DNA from: a virus
Length of the DNA: 60,796 bases
IMG/VR virus record: IMGVR_UViG_3300030450_002344
Span: 1-60,796 of that record
Direction: 5' to 3' (one strand)
Positions 1-55,011 of this stretch are shown one piece after another; positions within the stretch are counted from its first letter, which is position 1; each line of letters opens with the position of its first letter. Under the pieces are notes generated by a model, which did no database searches, was not told where the DNA came from, and worked only from the letters and a program-made list of their open reading frames with translations. A program made the position numbers and the translations under genes.

Positions 1-100
1 TTGCACTAAAGCAAGCGGAGCTAGGTAAGATTATAGCGGCCAGCTCTAACATAATAGAGGCGGTTAATAATCCTGACTATCAAGAACTGCTTAATACTTC
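1..100. repeat. Terminal direct repeat, left copy
   Basis: These 100 bases recur at 60697-60796 with a single mismatch (t at 99, a at 60795). The gene that runs off the right end continues in frame through this copy, so the repeat is most simply the assembly overlap of a circular or circularly permuted molecule rather than a biological long terminal repeat. Confidence 0.9.
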
Positions 101-350
101 GCTGACTCTACATAGTATAGAGGTTACTAAAGGTATGAAACGGGCAGCACTTAACGCGCTATTAGGTAAGAACAAAGGGCTTAAAGGTAATAAGCAAACT
201 CGTAAACAGCTAAGAGCTTTTAAGAAAGCCATTGAACCTTATACAGACCGGCCTGAAATTAAGAATCTAATAGAGATTATGACAGCTAAAAGCCTAGAGG
301 TTTCTGATAATAACTTAGAGGCTGAGGTTACTAGATGGAAGGGGAGGTAG
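1..350 (+). CDS. C-terminal part of the sigma region-2-like protein (continues from 59745)
   Basis: When the window is closed through the 100-bp overlap, the frame opened at 59745 continues here (first full codon at 3) and stops at 348-350, giving a protein of about 433 residues. This part is basic and helical, rich in Lys, Asn and Leu, with no domain I recognise. It does not look like a sigma region 4, which would carry a helix-turn-helix. An ATG at 135 lies in the same frame, but treating it as a separate 71-residue gene is unnecessary once the ends are joined. Confidence 0.8.
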   Translation, partial: ALKQAELGKIIAASSNIIEAVNNPDYQELLNTSLTLHSIEVTKGMKRAALNALLGKNKGLKGNKQTRKQLRAFKKAIEPYTDRPEIKNLIEIMTAKSLEVSDNNLEAEVTRWKGR

Positions 351-436
351 TATATATACAACTATACTATATACTGCTGACTATAATATATCCCGGCTAT
401 AACTATACCGAAGACTTTAAATGCTTCTTTAGAACT

Positions 437-490
437 CTCCCCCGTAGGGGGAGGTCAGCCGGTGTCGCAGTTAAGTGGCCGACGAGCCGA
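437..490 (+). ncRNA. Hairpin element copy A (GC-rich hairpin plus conserved 3' tail)
   Basis: A 7-bp perfect GC hairpin (437-443 with 447-453, loop GTA) is followed by GGT, about eight variable bases and the motif YGCAGTTAA, then a second GC-rich segment. The same arrangement occurs at 2102 and 59501. It lies in the 218-base gap before the gene at 569. A second small hairpin (stem GCACA/TGTGC, about 491-504) follows. There is no T tract, so it is not a standard intrinsic terminator. The rest of the gap is AT-rich with short inverted repeats. Confidence 0.5.
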
Positions 491-568
491 GCACAGCGTT
501 GTGCTTAGGTGAATAAATAATATCTTATGTGTCGGTTTGATATGTACATGGTATGAAAGGAGTTTGAT

Positions 569-793
569 ATGCCTAACATAGATATAGATTACACAGTATT
601 AATCACTGATGAGGGGGAATTCTGTGTAAGGGGCGGGGTATTATATTGTAATAATATCCCTATGCCTTACGTGGATGAACCAGAACAAGAGTTCTATACA
701 CTAGTATCGCAGGAGATTGATAACCTGCAAGAGGGTAAAGATACGGGCAGCTATATAGAAGTTCGTAGAATGCAAGTATGGGAGGAAGCATAA
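569..793 (+). CDS. Small acidic protein of unknown function
   Basis: A 74-residue acidic protein that I do not recognise. The start has a good AAGGAG ribosome binding site at about 556-561. The stop codon overlaps the next start by one base (TAATG), indicating translational coupling in the early operon. There is no signal peptide, membrane segment or metal-binding motif beyond two separated cysteines. Confidence 0.8.
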   Translation: MPNIDIDYTVLITDEGEFCVRGGVLYCNNIPMPYVDEPEQEFYTLVSQEIDNLQEGKDTGSYIEVRRMQVWEEA

Positions 794-1050
794 TGCCATT
801 CGTAGAGTACGGTAAACATGGGATGAAGCGATGGGTTAATACCTATCAGGTTGGTGATGTAATATACGCTAACCATAAGGCTAAGGGCCTTGAAGATATG
901 GAAGGGTCTTGTGTAGAAACTAAGTTAGTTACTACGCAGGGTTACTGGCCGCCAGAGTACGATAAGAATACAGCCTATCGTATAGTGCAATACTTTAAGT
1001 GTGCTGTATGTGGTGTAGCTATAGAGGATAAGGAGTTTATAGATGGGTAA
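793..1050 (+). CDS. Small protein of unknown function
   Basis: I place the start at the ATG at 793, not the in-frame ATG at 778, because GGAGG at 780-784 sits correctly for 793. The result is an 85-residue protein with a C-terminal CxxC pair and one upstream Cys, so a metal site is possible but incomplete. It overlaps the previous gene by one base and the next by eight. Function is unknown. Confidence 0.75.
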   Translation: MPFVEYGKHGMKRWVNTYQVGDVIYANHKAKGLEDMEGSCVETKLVTTQGYWPPEYDKNTAYRIVQYFKCAVCGVAIEDKEFIDG

Positions 1051-1393
1051 TTTATACTCACTTCAGTGTGAACTTAATCTAATCGCTGATGGGTTAAAAA
1101 CTTATGAAGACGTTATAGATTTTAATCATGCTGATGAACATACAAAGTCTATAATGGCACAGCTTTGGGACGTATATGTAGAGCCTCCGTCTCAGTCTTG
1201 GTACACATATCAAGGATGTTGGGAAAGTGAGGATGAATTTGCTGCGGATTTAGCAAGTGAAACAGGGTTTCTTGATAGTGATTGGAGTACATACTTTGAT
1301 TATGACCTGTGGACTAATGACTTATTCATAAGTGACTACACGTCATTAGACTGTAGGCAATGTGGTGACTTAATGATAGTGAGGTATGACTGA
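1043..1393 (+). CDS. ArdA-like antirestriction protein (C-terminal lobe only)
   Basis: A 116-residue, very acidic protein (rich in Asp and Glu). From about residue 60 it reads FAADLASETG, then YFDYDLWTNDLF, matching the C-terminal pattern of ArdA (FA-x-E-x-ETG, then a DYE/DYD-x-W-x-x-DL block). ArdA proteins are DNA mimics that occupy type I restriction enzymes. Typical ArdA is about 165 residues; the N-terminal third is missing or unrecognisable here, and a terminal CRQC pair is added. It sits in the early operon, where antirestriction genes are expected. The assignment rests on motif similarity only. Confidence 0.5.
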   Translation: MGNLYSLQCELNLIADGLKTYEDVIDFNHADEHTKSIMAQLWDVYVEPPSQSWYTYQGCWESEDEFAADLASETGFLDSDWSTYFDYDLWTNDLFISDYTSLDCRQCGDLMIVRYD

Positions 1394-2097
1394 TGGAAAC
1401 TAAACGCAAAACAATTAGGATACCTAATACTGGGGCATGGTTGTCTCAGATAGTAATGGATGCCATGGGATACGGAGGTGCTGAATGGCGTAGGTATAAG
1501 ATGCAAGGTATCATACGGTTGGTAACTCGTGATGGTACTAGCAAGCCTGAAGTATGTAGTAGGGCTAGGGATGAGGACTTATGGGTAATGACCGGGACTA
1601 CTGTATATATTGGTAGGTCTATAGAGATTGAAGTATTAGGAGAGATTATGGAAGGCACTGCAAAGTGGACAACAGGTAAGGATGAAGACCAAGCTGTTGT
1701 TACCACGGCGGAAAGAGATAAACTGCTAAGGGATTATTGGAATCATGCTAGGTATGTTAGTCGTGTACAAGAGTTATCTCGTGAGTCTATTAAGCGTATG
1801 CTTGATAAGTCTGAGAAACTAACCGAAGCGATTGTAAATACAGTGTACCCTGCTATTAGGCTTATGGCAGATGGCAGTTGGTACATAGATAAGGAAGGTA
1901 ACGCTCATGTAGGTTACAATCCACCAAAGACAGCTATGATTATGTATAGTCACAACTGGAAATCTAGTGAGAAGTGGGATGACTTCCGTAAGGCAGAGGT
2001 CGCACTGACTGAGGATGTACGGATATACATCCGTAACCATATAGAAGAACTTGCAGATGCTAGAGAGATAGCACACATAGTAAAGTTAATGGCTTAA
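1393..2097 (+). CDS. Hypothetical protein, 234 residues
   Basis: I do not recognise this protein. It starts with a basic segment, contains many Trp and Tyr residues and ends in a helical acidic region. The start overlaps the previous stop (TGATG), so it is translationally coupled. No catalytic motif or membrane segment is visible. It is the last gene before hairpin element B. Confidence 0.8.
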   Translation: METKRKTIRIPNTGAWLSQIVMDAMGYGGAEWRRYKMQGIIRLVTRDGTSKPEVCSRARDEDLWVMTGTTVYIGRSIEIEVLGEIMEGTAKWTTGKDEDQAVVTTAERDKLLRDYWNHARYVSRVQELSRESIKRMLDKSEKLTEAIVNTVYPAIRLMADGSWYIDKEGNAHVGYNPPKTAMIMYSHNWKSSEKWDDFRKAEVALTEDVRIYIRNHIEELADAREIAHIVKLMA

Positions 2098-2101
2098 CCC
2101 T

Positions 2102-2150
2102 CTGCCCCGAAGGGGCAGGTCACAGGGTGCCGCAGTTAACCGTGGCTCGG
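2102..2150 (+). ncRNA. Hairpin element copy B
   Basis: A 7-bp GC hairpin with a GAA loop (2102-2108 with 2112-2118), then GGT, spacer, CGCAGTTAA and GTGGCTCGG. It matches copies A (437) and C (59501) in layout: hairpin, GGT, a fixed spacer to the GCAGTTA-like core, then a GC-rich tail. It lies between the stop at 2097 and the gene at 2197, in a probable leader. Confidence 0.5.
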
Positions 2151-2196
2151 TGGGGTCACAAAGATAAAAATGATTGGTCAACGGAAGGATAATAGA

Positions 2197-2484
2197 ATGG
2201 CTAAAAGTTTTGTTGAAGTACCACAAGATGCGGTACGAATTAGAGTCGGTGAGAACACCGAGTTGGTTGCTTGGCAATCAGAGTATAATGGGGAGAAGCA
2301 GATTAGCTTCGGCAAATCTACCCAATACAAAGAAGGTGGAGATGTCTACACTAAGATGGCTCCTCCTATCACAGCTTCTACATTCCACATGCTAGTTAAC
2401 CTAGCTAATGGACACCTCTTTGGTGGTGATGTAGATGCTCACGACGGTGTAGCTATTGAGGCTCCACGTCGGGGTGAACGTTAA
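2197..2484 (+). CDS. Small protein of unknown function upstream of the structured RNA
   Basis: I chose the ATG at 2197 because GGAAGG at 2183-2188 is spaced eight bases from it; the in-frame ATG at 2170 has no ribosome binding site. The 95-residue product looks soluble and beta-rich. It has no motif I can name. It lies between hairpin element B and the large structured RNA region, so it may share that transcript. Confidence 0.75.
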   Translation: MAKSFVEVPQDAVRIRVGENTELVAWQSEYNGEKQISFGKSTQYKEGGDVYTKMAPPITASTFHMLVNLANGHLFGGDVDAHDGVAIEAPRRGER

Positions 2485-2499
2485 TAAAGTCTAGCAAGT

Positions 2500-3135
2500 G
2501 GGAGCCTACCACCGTCAGGTTCCCCCTTACTAGTGAGATTCTTAATCTATCTCCTCTCGTCCTAGGTTAGGAGTCTCACTAGTAAGGTCTTGATAGCATA
2601 TAACGATTGTAGTTTATTAATTTAACAATTATTATTATTAAGACTTTACTATAGTAAGGCTAATAGGAGATGATCTTGACAGCCATAGCTTATTAGACTT
2701 ACTGCCTCATAAGGGTGGACAAGTAACGTGACTTCCTCACACCCCCAAGTTACTTGTACATCCCTATGAGGTACCATAGTTGCTCCTTATTATGGGACCT
2801 CTAACCATGTTGGTGCTAGGTTGGCAGGTAAAAGGTTTAAGCCATTGGCTGAGTATCCTCACCTGTCGGCCTAGTATTATAGTGGTATGTAAAGGCGCGT
2901 TTCCTGTCGGGTGGGTTTATAAGCACCCTATAAACAACGTAAGAGATTGGCATAAGCGATTAGTACAGGAAGCCAGTCCGCCTTACTCTATTAGTTACAA
3001 GTGGATTCAGTAGTTACTATCCGATGGTAAAATGCCTAGCATGACCTCCGTGGATATGACTAAGGGTGAACTCCTTACCTTTGCTGAAGCGTAGTGCACA
3101 CTAAGGGCGCTGAGGCTGCTACTGGATCCACTTGT
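2500..3135 (+). ncRNA. Large structured non-coding RNA candidate (about 640 nt)
   Basis: The 676-base gap between 2484 and 3161 has no credible gene but is packed with complementary segments: 2500-2507/2517-2524 (8 bp), 2526-2538/2574-2586 (13 bp, perfect), 2587-2594/2637-2644 (8 bp, directly stacked on the previous stem), 2660-2665/2691-2696, 2705-2727/2749-2771 (about 21 bp with small bulges), 2823-2829/2861-2867, 2915-2921/2929-2935 and a long-range 2997-3013/3119-3135 (17 bp). Several stems contain G-U wobbles, which suggests RNA rather than DNA palindromes. Size and ornateness recall phage-borne GOLLD and ROOL RNAs, but I cannot assign it to either. No clear promoter was found, so the ends are approximate. 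Confidence 0.7.
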
Positions 3136-3160
3136 ATCTAAAAGAATGGGAGGAAGATAC

Positions 3161-3376
3161 ATGCAAATAGGGATTGAAGCACACAATGATATGACTCTAA
3201 TTGAGATCATACAAGCAGTGGAGGATGGCTTTACTGACGGAGGGGTGGAAATTTCCTTAGAGGAGGAAGTATGTAGACATGACATAGAAGCCATGGCTAT
3301 ACAGATATGGAAAGATATGTACGGAGATTTTGAGATTGATGGTTTATACATCGCAGGTGTAAGGGATAGAGAATAA
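3161..3376 (+). CDS. Small acidic protein of unknown function
   Basis: The start at 3161 is preferred over the in-frame ATG at 3146 because GGAGG at 3149-3153 fits 3161 with a seven-base spacer. The 71-residue acidic product is mostly helical and unrecognised. It is the first gene after the structured RNA, and its stop overlaps the next start (TAATG). Confidence 0.75.
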   Translation: MQIGIEAHNDMTLIEIIQAVEDGFTDGGVEISLEEEVCRHDIEAMAIQIWKDMYGDFEIDGLYIAGVRDRE

Positions 3377-3795
3377 TGACTGACTATGCAACAGTAAGAA
3401 ACAAGGTAGAGACAGATGATACTTTAGTATTTGCTGCGGGGCATGAGACCTTAGATGATAGACCGCATAAGATTACTAAAGAACAACTGGATGCTATCCC
3501 TGACTTCATCCTAAGATGGGATGATTATATACCTGTCGATGCAGTACGAGCATGGATAGAGTACCACCAAGATGGACAGAGTGAGATACATGACCAAGGT
3601 TTATTCATAAGTTCTGCTAGTTCAGATGAGTACTTTGCTAAGGTAGTCTATGAGTATGATGAGTCATTAAACAAACTCGATGATGTCTTAGCATTTGCTA
3701 TTGATTGGGAAGTTGTAGCGCATGAGCTACTTAGGGAGGACTATATTAAGTTGGAATACAACGGTAGTAACTATTACTTTAGGAGTGTTGCATGA
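3376..3795 (+). CDS. Acidic ArdA-like protein (second candidate antirestriction protein)
   Basis: A 139-residue, strongly acidic protein. Its C-terminal part reads AIDWEVVAHELLREDY, then a hydrophobic strand with YYF, which resembles the last block of ArdA (IDYE/IDWE-x-x-ARDL). The rest is too divergent to align by eye. It would be the second ArdA-like protein in this early block; the other is at 1043. Charge and size fit DNA mimicry, but a plain acidic early protein is possible. Confidence 0.4.
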   Translation: MTDYATVRNKVETDDTLVFAAGHETLDDRPHKITKEQLDAIPDFILRWDDYIPVDAVRAWIEYHQDGQSEIHDQGLFISSASSDEYFAKVVYEYDESLNKLDDVLAFAIDWEVVAHELLREDYIKLEYNGSNYYFRSVA

Positions 3796-4019
3796 GTATG
3801 GAAGGATTGACTGACAACGGGGTAGCTCCTGAAGAGGGGAACGTAACGAGGGAAGGCTTACTGCTATACCGATTAGAGGGATACTTAAATAAGCTGAGGT
3901 ACTCGTTACAACAATTAGAAGATACATTTGAAGGCACTGACCATGAAGGATTGTTCCGTAACATACAGGACATGTCTGAATGGGTAGAAGAAATAAGAAA
4001 AGAGATTAAGAATGGCTAA
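3792..4019 (+). CDS. Small coiled-coil protein
   Basis: A 75-residue acidic protein with a leucine-patterned helix from about residue 25 to the end, likely a coiled coil. The start overlaps the preceding stop (ATGA), and the end overlaps the next gene by eight bases. Function unknown. Confidence 0.75.
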   Translation: MSMEGLTDNGVAPEEGNVTREGLLLYRLEGYLNKLRYSLQQLEDTFEGTDHEGLFRNIQDMSEWVEEIRKEIKNG

Positions 4020-4260
4020 CATTACATTAACAGAGAGCACAATAGAAGAGATAGCATCCGCATTAGAGAGACACTTAGCACCAGCTATTGAAGATCCGGG
4101 TAATATTATTGATTACGACTACGAAATAAATGTCAGTGGTGAAGGTGATGGGTACAGTAATACAGATGTAGACATAACCTTACGTGTTGATGAGACATCA
4201 TTGAAGGCTGTGATAAAAGAGATACTAGAAGATGACTTAGGTGAAAACAGCGACGCTTAA
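4012..4260 (+). CDS. Small acidic protein of unknown function
   Basis: An 82-residue, very acidic protein with alternating helix- and strand-like stretches. It overlaps the previous gene by eight bases. No recognisable motif. Its charge resembles the other acidic products of this operon. Confidence 0.75.
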   Translation: MANITLTESTIEEIASALERHLAPAIEDPGNIIDYDYEINVSGEGDGYSNTDVDITLRVDETSLKAVIKEILEDDLGENSDA

Positions 4261-4272
4261 GAGGAGGTTGTA

Positions 4273-4548
4273 ATGGGTTGGAGAGCGATGTATCCAAAGT
4301 TTTATGTAGAGTTCTTTAACGAGAATGGACATCAAGCTATCATCGAGATGCCAGATCATATCATCACTGATGCTATAGGAAACTTTGTACAAGATGAGAT
4401 AGATAATGATGACCTGCTACGTGGTGGTAGGTGGCGCTTACTGTCTGATGAAGAGGCCGAACAATGGGAACGTGACCAAGATGATAAGGCTAACCTTTAC
4501 GATGATGAGCGCCAGTATGATAATGAAGACTGGAATTGGGAGAAGTAG
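4273..4548 (+). CDS. Small acidic protein of unknown function
   Basis: A 91-residue protein with a strong GAGGAGG site at about 4260-4266. The N-terminal half looks like a small alpha/beta fold; the C-terminal third is almost entirely charged (Asp, Glu, Arg, Trp) and probably disordered. Function unknown. Confidence 0.75.
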   Translation: MGWRAMYPKFYVEFFNENGHQAIIEMPDHIITDAIGNFVQDEIDNDDLLRGGRWRLLSDEEAEQWERDQDDKANLYDDERQYDNEDWNWEK

Positions 4549-4549
4549 T

Positions 4550-4780
4550 ATGGGTGTAATACATGACACAAATGATAGGCAACTAGCACTTGCTATCTTT
4601 GCAACATTAAATAGAGAAGTAATGGATAGTATAGGACGGCAGGATCCAAAGGCAGATACAGTTAATGAGCTGTTCCAGTATTGGATTCGTCTGTATTATA
4701 AACAGACTACACCTACAACGGAGAAGGTATGGAATTATGTCAGAGATTTACCACGAAGATTGTTTAAACACAATCAATAG
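4550..4780 (+). CDS. Small basic helical protein
   Basis: Starts at the ATG at 4550, one base after the upstream stop. The 76-residue helical product turns basic at its C-terminus, so nucleic-acid binding is possible. The last 44 bases overlap the start of the DNA methyltransferase gene, an unusually long overlap here. Confidence 0.7.
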   Translation: MGVIHDTNDRQLALAIFATLNREVMDSIGRQDPKADTVNELFQYWIRLYYKQTTPTTEKVWNYVRDLPRRLFKHNQ

Positions 4781-5489
4781 GTTGAGATGGGAACATGTAC
4801 GAGATAATAAAAAGACTAGGCAGCCTGTCGATTTGGTAGTAACATCACCCCCTTACAATATGAATCTACGTATACAAAATGGTAAGTATCGTAGCCGCCA
4901 GATTACTGAAGAGTTTAGTAATAAGTATGATGGCTTCACAGATAACATGCCGATTGATGAGTACACAAACTTTCATAGCTTAGTACTTGAAAGTCTATTT
5001 GGTATCTCTGACCTAATCTTTTATAATGTGGGCATTGTTACTGGCAGTAAACGTGCATGGTTTAAAATAATTGGAGACTTCTCTAAGTATCTAAAGGAGA
5101 TTATTATCTGGGATAAGGGGAACGGACAGCCCGCTATGCAACAACAAGTATTGAATCGGCGCTCTGAACTTATACTGGTGTTTGATAATGACTATGCTAT
5201 TAGCAGACAGTTTAGAGATAAGGGTACGTTTGAACGTGGTACGTTGGATGATGTATGGAATATAGGTAGGCCACTACCACATGAGAAGGTAGATAATCAT
5301 GCTGCACAAATGCCTGAAGCATTAGTAGAAAGAATCCTCTTGAACTTCAGCGAAGAAGGTGATACAATCTATGATCCATTCATGGGTACAGGTACCACTG
5401 GTGTTGTAGCTAAGAGGTTGAATAGAAAATTCATAGGCAGTGAGCTAGTAAAAAGCTACTACAATACTGCACAAAAAAGATTGGGTTGA
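4737..5489 (+). CDS. Orphan DNA N4-cytosine/N6-adenine methyltransferase
   Basis: Transfers a methyl group from SAM to an exocyclic amino group in DNA. The catalytic motif TSPPYN is at about residues 40-45, and the SAM-binding motif DPFMGTGTTG is near the C-terminus at about 220-230, so motif IV precedes motif I (beta-class order). At 250 residues it is a compact enzyme. I chose the ATG at 4737, which has GGAGAAGG nine bases upstream. No partner endonuclease is nearby, so the likely role is protecting phage DNA from host restriction. SPPY is common in N4-cytosine enzymes, but adenine specificity cannot be excluded. Confidence 0.9.
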   Translation: MSEIYHEDCLNTINRLRWEHVRDNKKTRQPVDLVVTSPPYNMNLRIQNGKYRSRQITEEFSNKYDGFTDNMPIDEYTNFHSLVLESLFGISDLIFYNVGIVTGSKRAWFKIIGDFSKYLKEIIIWDKGNGQPAMQQQVLNRRSELILVFDNDYAISRQFRDKGTFERGTLDDVWNIGRPLPHEKVDNHAAQMPEALVERILLNFSEEGDTIYDPFMGTGTTGVVAKRLNRKFIGSELVKSYYNTAQKRLG

Positions 5490-5490
5490 T

Positions 5491-6000
5491 ATGAGTACCT
5501 TTATAAACAAAGAACGTGCTGAATCTTTCACTAATATACTGAATGACCTTTCTGTAAGAGTGTTCGGTAAAGAACCTTCGGAAGCTATACTAGCTGGTGA
5601 ATGCCTAGGTTGTGGCATCACTGTAGATTTAGATTCAATGCACATTGCTAGACAAGAACGCTATGGGATATGTGGTATGTGTAGTGACTGCCAAGCCAAT
5701 TGGTTACCCGCAGAAATCTTTGATTCTCCTCAGAATGAGGAACAGTTGAAGGGACAGTGGGGTGTACCTAAAAGGTTTAAGCAACCACGCTATAAAAAAT
5801 CACGAGAGAAAATTGTACGTGCTATGAAAAAGAATCATCCGTATAAGCCAATTGAAATTGAAGAACGATCTGGCGTAGCAGGTACTACTATCATGCGGCA
5901 CCTAAAAGATATGCAACAGCATAGGAAAGTATCACAAATAGAAGTTTTTGGCAAGGTAATGTATGTAAGATTGGTGGGTATAAAAGATGCAATGTCCTAA
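5491..6000 (+). CDS. Zn-finger and winged-helix-like DNA-binding protein
   Basis: A 169-residue protein with an N-terminal zinc-binding unit (a CxxC pair near residue 40 and CxxCxxC near residues 60-67). A basic linker follows, then a segment at about 115-150 (IEIEERSGVAGTTIMRHL) that reads as a helix-turn-helix or winged helix. It is probably a phage transcription regulator or DNA-binding factor. It starts just after the methyltransferase stop and overlaps the next gene by 14 bases. Confidence 0.6.
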   Translation: MSTFINKERAESFTNILNDLSVRVFGKEPSEAILAGECLGCGITVDLDSMHIARQERYGICGMCSDCQANWLPAEIFDSPQNEEQLKGQWGVPKRFKQPRYKKSREKIVRAMKKNHPYKPIEIEERSGVAGTTIMRHLKDMQQHRKVSQIEVFGKVMYVRLVGIKDAMS

Positions 6001-12219: not shown

Positions 12220-12243
12220 CGAATAACTCCTCCGATTAGGGGG

Positions 12244-12272
12244 TTGCCAAATGTCTGCAGATATGTTATAAT
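12244..12272 (+). promoter_or_regulatory. Sigma-70-type promoter upstream of the recombination genes
   Basis: TTGCCA (12244-12249), a 17-base spacer, and TATAAT (12267-12272) preceded by TGT, an extended -10. The predicted start near 12279 leads into the structured leader and the nuclease gene at 12458. Confidence 0.75.
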
Positions 12273-12295
12273 TATGTGTAGACATATTGGTGACC

Positions 12296-12437
12296 TCTTT
12301 GGAAGTTATCAAGGATTATTGAGTCTCATACTTACATGATTCCCCAATCATATGAGACAACATTTAAGGTGACGCGAAGGGGGAACTCGCTGAATAAGTC
12401 CTTACGTGCCTAGCACATTCTTGATAGTTTCCAAAGA
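12296..12437 (+). ncRNA. Structured leader RNA closed by an 18-bp stem
   Basis: Between the promoter and the ATG at 12458, 12296-12313 pairs with 12420-12437 over 18 bp, including two G-U pairs. Inside are a hairpin at 12323-12358 (7-bp and 6-bp helices separated by a 6-base bulge, CCCC loop), a second arm (TAAGG/CCTTA with an inner GCGA/TCGC stem) and a small GTGC/GCAC hairpin. This multi-branched fold resembles a riboswitch or an independent small RNA in size. I recognise no known class. Confidence 0.6.
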
Positions 12438-12457
12438 AGTCATCAATAGGATCAAAT

Positions 12458-54935: not shown

Positions 54936-55011
54936 CGCGGGGTGGAGCAGTGGTAGCTCGTCAGGTTCATTGTCTGAAGGTCGTCAGGTTCGATTCCGGC
55001 CCCCGCTACCA
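54936..55011 (+). tRNA. tRNA-Met(CAT), initiator-like
   Basis: A 76-nt cloverleaf with encoded CCA. The acceptor CGCGGGG, the D stem GAGC/GCTC and most of the T side match bacterial initiator tRNA. As in initiators, position 1 (C) cannot pair with position 72 (T). The anticodon loop TTCATTG gives CAT. Departures include an anticodon stem without the full three G-C pairs (A29-T41, G31-T39), T37 instead of A37, a D loop two bases shorter and an extra A in the T stem. It might also be lysidine-modified to read AUA. Confidence 0.75.

Follow-up and report, generated by a model that had tools for sequence, protein, structure and literature searches.

An uncultured phage, represented by IMG/VR record IMGVR_UViG_3300030450_002344 (60,796 nucleotides [nt], positions 1 to 60,796; this whole stretch is referred to as the window), carries a structured RNA element of approximately 650 bases at 2486–3145 on the plus strand, where it occupies the gap between two early genes. 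Judging from comparison with related sequences, it is a modular phage RNA that had not previously been catalogued. We estimate a probability of about 0.5 that it represents a new structural class of non-coding RNA, found in the early operons of a group of uncultured tailed phages, and that it is co-transcribed, processed, and active in trans. This interpretation is favored because the fold lies far beyond that of shuffled sequences, the homologues contain compensatory changes and G-U intermediates, the element keeps a fixed slot while its modules turn over, and no open reading frame (ORF) is shared. The main rival is a cis-acting role within the early mRNA.

An intergenic element with strong plus-strand folding

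A preliminary description, made from the sequence alone, placed a non-coding multi-hairpin RNA at 2500–3135. The gap is indeed without a gene, but these limits were not exact; the upstream gene stops at 2484, the next gene starts with an ATG at 3161 (alternative start at 3146), and the whole element runs from that stop to the ribosome-binding site or start of the next gene (2486–3145). The plus strand has a minimum free energy (MFE) of −256.1 kcal/mol compared with a mean of −182 to −185 for dinucleotide shuffles, giving z-scores of −13.8 (20 shuffles) and −8.7 (40 shuffles), which differ because of shuffle sampling. The minus strand gave −3.6 to −3.7. When both strands of the 60.8 kb were scanned by folding 200-nt pieces, the element was the most extreme region and took ranks 1, 4, and 6 among 1212 pieces. 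All of the helices described earlier were found, the long stems P4, P5, and P7 among them, and G-U pairs are common.

Four other full copies were located in uncultured phages from IMG/VR: L005 (7093–7700), L008 (371–870), L009 (2631–3110), and L013 (914–1467, minus strand). A further copy, L010, is represented by its 3′ end alone. Each of the five full copies folds far beyond its shuffles, and better on the plus than on the minus strand. All of them sit directly after the same 95-aa gene, whose products are 73%–99% identical to the window protein. The downstream gene varies: an MTLIE-type gene follows in the window, L005, and L008, and an MSKTSWNT gene follows in L009, in L013, and after the L010 fragment. 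The element ranges from ~470 to 660 nt; the P7 core is present in 5/5 full copies, and the 5′ modules have been gained, lost, or wholly swapped. L005 is without P6, L008 and L009 are without P4 and P6, and L013 has P6 but not P5.

Compensatory changes and the absence of a shared reading frame

In the P7 core, 97.3% of cells were paired (23%–50% in slid controls) and four pairs had both-side changes (1.6 in shuffles, with 5/500 reaching this number), and P1 and P2 together were 100% paired (slid controls, 40%–54%) with four both-side pairs in seven cells (shuffles, 3.5; 0/500 as high); the shuffle control ignores the relatedness of the sequences, and these figures are counts, not probabilities. 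Sliding the structures thus lowered pairing from 97%–100% to 23%–54%. Both-side changes occur in most helices, namely P1, P2, P5, P7, P7c, P7d, and one stem of the P6 pseudoknots. No ORF of at least 25 aa is common to all five copies, and single-base indels are frequent. Together, the compensatory changes and the lack of a conserved ORF bear out the earlier proposal of a non-coding structured RNA in the gap. The frequent wobble changes and the better folding of the plus strand argue for RNA rather than DNA, and by these comparative measures, structure at the RNA level on the plus strand is shown to be under selection.

Architecture of the element

All helices are given for the plus strand. P1 (2500–2524) pairs GGGAGCC (2500–2506) with GGUUCCC (2518–2524); its cells are 100% paired across four homologues, with a CG-UA change on both sides and an A-U/G-U variant in L013. 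P2 (2526–2586) is a 24-bp hairpin (2526–2549/2563–2586) with a variable apical part, both-side changes at three pairs, and cells that are 100% paired; the perfect 13-bp stem of the preliminary description (2526–2538/2574–2586) is its base. At the same position, L013 has unrelated sequence that again folds as a long hairpin. P3 (2587–2644, stem 2587–2595/2636–2644) abuts P2, in agreement with the end-to-end stacking that had been noticed; it is almost identical in L005, and L008 and L009 carry short unrelated hairpins instead. P4 (2703–2773) consists of 2703–2727/2749–2773 and a 4-bp apical stem and is shared with L005 only. The 19-bp stem of P5 (2811–2879, 2811–2829/2861–2879) is found in L005, L008, and L009, is 100% paired, and has two both-side and three wobble changes. 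A long-range pairing, P0 (2487–2499/2688–2700), was dropped because relatives do not keep it.

Pseudoknots account for the segment at 2901–2982 better than a simple hairpin does. P6 (2901–2978) is a nested double pseudoknot in which the outer stems, UUCCUGU (2901–2907)/ACAGGAA (2965–2971) and GAUUGGC (2945–2951)/GCCAGUC (2972–2978), cross one another, as do the inner stems GGGUG (2909–2913)/CACCC (2924–2928) and GUUUAUA (2915–2921)/UAUAAAC (2929–2935). It exists only in the window and L013, where 51/52 cells are paired with one both-side G-C/A-U exchange and further one-side G-U changes, a comparison of two sequences that has no statistical power on its own.

P7 is the conserved 3′ core of ~160 nt (2987–3145). 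Its stem (2987–3014/3118–3145), formed by a closing helix (2996–3013/3119–3136) and an outer UCU/AGA, is the one already recognized as bridging ~100 bases. L013 has a UA to CG double change here, and the outer UCU/AGA also occurs as CCU/AGG. A model built from the core (R1) scored 176 bits on the plus strand versus 41 on the minus strand. Within the core, P7a (3014–3030) is a short hairpin, UUACUA/UGGUAA, registered by hand, with a conserved CCGAU loop and one mismatch in L005; the MFE hairpin at 3018–3027/3048–3056 clashes with it and was not adopted. P7c (3065–3079) is a GGU/ACC stem with a UA-CG both-side change and the invariant loop GAACUCCUU. P7d (3083–3116, 3083–3091/3108–3116, apical UAGU/ACUA) contains an invariant AGGG bulge, a UA-CG both-side change, and G-U intermediates, with two or three inner positions unpaired in the window and L005. 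The UCCU of the P7c loop could pair with the AGGG bulge of P7d; both are invariant and hence give no covariation. Overlapping the foot of P7 is a GUAUCU/AGAUAC inverted repeat (3134–3160), which is kept with differing loops in 6/6 sequences and surrounds the Shine-Dalgarno sequence of the next gene in the window and L005 only.

Distribution

The phage and plasmid collections searched contained no convincing relative. INPHARED phages gave no match except a weak AT-rich 50-base stretch, which accounted for 47 BLAST matches in Acinetobacter phages (E = 5e-3) and was judged to be chance. Bacterial genomes scanned with the core pattern held no copy, a capsid search aimed at the host returned nothing, and a pattern match in L012 was rejected as chance in an apparent coding region. 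Scans with the polymerase, the upstream protein, and the capsid for more homologues recovered the same early-region contigs only. The capsid relatives were mostly short late-region fragments, and no polymerase gene was detected in those longer ones that were tested; therefore, the absence of the RNA from them is uninformative. An alignment of L013 3407–3212 crosses the ends of the window (60622 to 124), which points to circular permutation or terminal redundancy of the genome; the window is thus probably near complete.

The upstream protein has a tentative PC4-like fold

The 95-aa gene (2197–2484, plus strand) adjoins the element in every homologue that reaches that far. A model of its product from four aligned sequences had a predicted local distance difference test (pLDDT) score of 57, which is low confidence, and comprised strands at 13–18, 21–30, 33–46, and 49–53 followed by a helix at 60–70. 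The eight best PDB matches to this model were PC4 homologues (E 0.03–0.13), and several named viral matches were single-stranded DNA (ssDNA)-binding or P15 proteins of the PC4 type (E about 0.01–0.03). The protein itself matched no Pfam family, PC4 (PF02229) included, sequence searches gave no family, and a search of the genome with PF02229 produced only a sub-threshold match elsewhere. We tentatively assign the modeled protein a PC4-like ssDNA- or RNA-binding fold.

A proposed trans-acting RNA and the alternatives to it

No intrinsic-terminator-like site was found in window positions 1–6000 (shuffles average 2.6), and these 6 kb have no excess of promoter- or terminator-like sites. Because no such site stands out, we infer that the element is transcribed within the early polycistronic RNA. 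By analogy, RNase III-type processing at the long perfect stems would probably excise it, and the freed RNA may then act in trans as a structural RNA or as the scaffold of a ribonucleoprotein (RNP). The conserved parts (P7, P7a, P7c, and P7d) would be the working core, in contact with a protein, with the ribosome, or with other copies of the RNA, and the variable hairpins (P2–P6) would serve as scaffold or specificity arms. The first partner to consider would be the adjoining PC4-like protein, and contacts would most plausibly be made by the invariant single-stranded parts (the CCGAU and GAACUCCUU loops and the AGGG bulge).

Several points weigh against this proposal. The covariation is real but modest because there are only five full copies, the cores of L008 and L009 are near-identical, and much of P7 never varies. 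The PC4 assignment depends on the pLDDT 57 model and Foldseek E values of 0.006–0.35, the processing step is an argument from analogy, and the separate stable transcript is likewise presumed; the RNA could act solely in cis within the early mRNA.

Such a cis-acting intercistronic RNA, providing antitermination of the HK022 put kind, stabilizing the transcript, or acting as a leader through the GUAUCU/AGAUAC hairpin around the Shine-Dalgarno sequence, is a real possibility, although one to which we give clearly less weight than to a trans-acting RNA. It would account for the shared operon strand and the 6 kb without a terminator, and farther upstream, the operon has additional short structured elements between genes (440–510 and 2098–2165). 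The put RNA of HK022 works in this manner in an early operon (PMC9378689). In the window and L005, the hairpin at the 3′ end of the element surrounds the Shine-Dalgarno sequence and competes with the P7 foot, but it does not cover that sequence in L008, L009, L010, or L013. Moreover, the downstream gene differs among homologues, and 470–660 nt with pseudoknots far exceeds what put or a simple leader would need.

Hairpins at the DNA level, which could mark an origin of replication, a site for packaging, or an island of recombination, are an unlikely explanation; the folding of the RNA would then be incidental. The inverted repeats are long and near-perfect, and the neighboring protein, as modeled, may bind ssDNA. 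However, the wobble pairs found throughout would be mismatches in DNA, the G-U intermediates fit RNA rather than DNA hairpins, and both the folding of the five copies and the R1 scores favor one strand.

The preliminary description had also raised the possibility of a GOLLD or ROOL member or a new class. At the gathering score, Rfam models found only a tRNA in the window, and likewise in the relatives; relaxed searches added only generic long-hairpin microRNA models below threshold, which were set aside. The GOLLD model (RF02032) had no match in the window, either at the gathering score or with the limit relaxed to E = 10, and none in the relatives. The ROOL model (RF03087) had none up to E = 10; no control genome gave a signal with it, which makes that search weak by itself, but this model was also part of the Rfam-wide scans. 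The sole tRNA, a tRNA-Met at 54936, lies ~8 kb from the element across the genome ends (~7 kb in L005 and L013), so there is no adjoining tRNA island. Membership was therefore not borne out, and a member diverged beyond reach of the models is very improbable; a new class is consistent with all results. An overlooked small protein gene is scarcely credible: a 77-aa ORF with a TTG start exists at 2780–3013, but the loss of P6 cuts it in L005, indels break the frame, and no ORF is common to the five copies.

The element would add a further class to the large ornate phage RNAs, which are few and whose functions are not known. The ~160-nt core is easy to make and probe, which makes the question of function testable on the core; relatives without P5 or P6 are natural "deletion mutants", and the fixed neighboring protein suggests a partner.

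Other elements of the early region

A second structured non-coding RNA lies at 12220–12457 (plus strand, the same operon direction) between two plus-strand genes, with a 30-bp outer stem and a z-score of −4.9. Homologues were found in L008 (10021–10260), L009 (13041–13280), and L010 (10289–10530). Across these, 93.6% of cells were paired (slid controls near 42%) and four pairs had both-side changes (a number reached in 0/500 shuffles), although three of the four sequences are near-identical and the count rests essentially on one comparison. The motif TGACN(2-6)GGNGAACTC is present in both structured RNAs (3057–3073 and 12370–12388) and in all homologues extending that far; the window has it at these two places and nowhere else, a circular count since the pattern was taken from those sites. 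By unbiased local alignment, the sharing was not significant (107/1000 and 161/1000 shuffles were as good). A speculative idea that we consider doubtful is a two-RNA RNP system for host takeover encoded by the early operon. In it, TGACN2-6GGNGAACUC would be a recognition motif common to the RNAs at 2486–3145 and 12220–12457, and the PC4-like protein encoded beside the first RNA would bind the two of them.

A short structured element occurs twice in intergenic positions ahead of early genes, at 440–510 and 2098–2165, with equivalents in L013, L005, and L009. Each copy is a GC-rich hairpin followed by GGTCA and GCAGTTAA; the hairpin sequence varies, and the pairing is seemingly kept. It is possibly a leader or put-like element. 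Window positions 1043–1393 match the antirestriction protein ArdA (PF07275), weakly but above the cutoff, which suggests that the early region serves host takeover.

Comparison with known RNAs

In kind, the element is a large structured phage RNA whose architecture resembles that of GOLLD, yet it is not GOLLD, and none of the tests assigned it to a known family. GOLLD is a large phage or prophage RNA with a conserved 3′ region and a less conserved 5′ region (PMC12286853), and the element similarly has a conserved 3′ core (P7, 5/5 copies) and replaceable 5′ modules. It differs in lacking a sequence or covariance-model match and the tRNA island that is often near GOLLD, in its core of ~160 nt, and in the helices that it forms. 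Accumulation during lytic growth and cage assembly are GOLLD's own traits; the present element is known from sequence alone. ROOL, a multi-helix phage RNA of ~600 nt with several pseudoknots (PMC12286853), resembles it in size, origin, and pseudoknotting, but the element has no match to the ROOL model and lies away from tRNA islands.

Large phage RNAs of such size that reach a high level include GOLLD, ROOL, and an ~800-nt transcript of ICP1 (PMC12286853; PMC7567579). The last is a very large non-coding RNA without orfs, located away from tRNAs (PMC7567579), and is set beside the element by description, not sequence. A structured RNA of the early operon is common to the element and HK022 put, but ours is many times larger and has pseudoknots. 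The put element is small, with two stem-loops. It acts in cis on RNA polymerase from within the phage early operon (PMC9378689). OLE is bacterial and works with Oap proteins, whereas the element described here is from phages, has no Rfam match, and has a neighbor that is not Oap by the searches made. The likeness is that OLE is an ornate RNA of ~600 nt working as an RNP, and the present RNA likewise adjoins a small protein that may bind nucleic acids.
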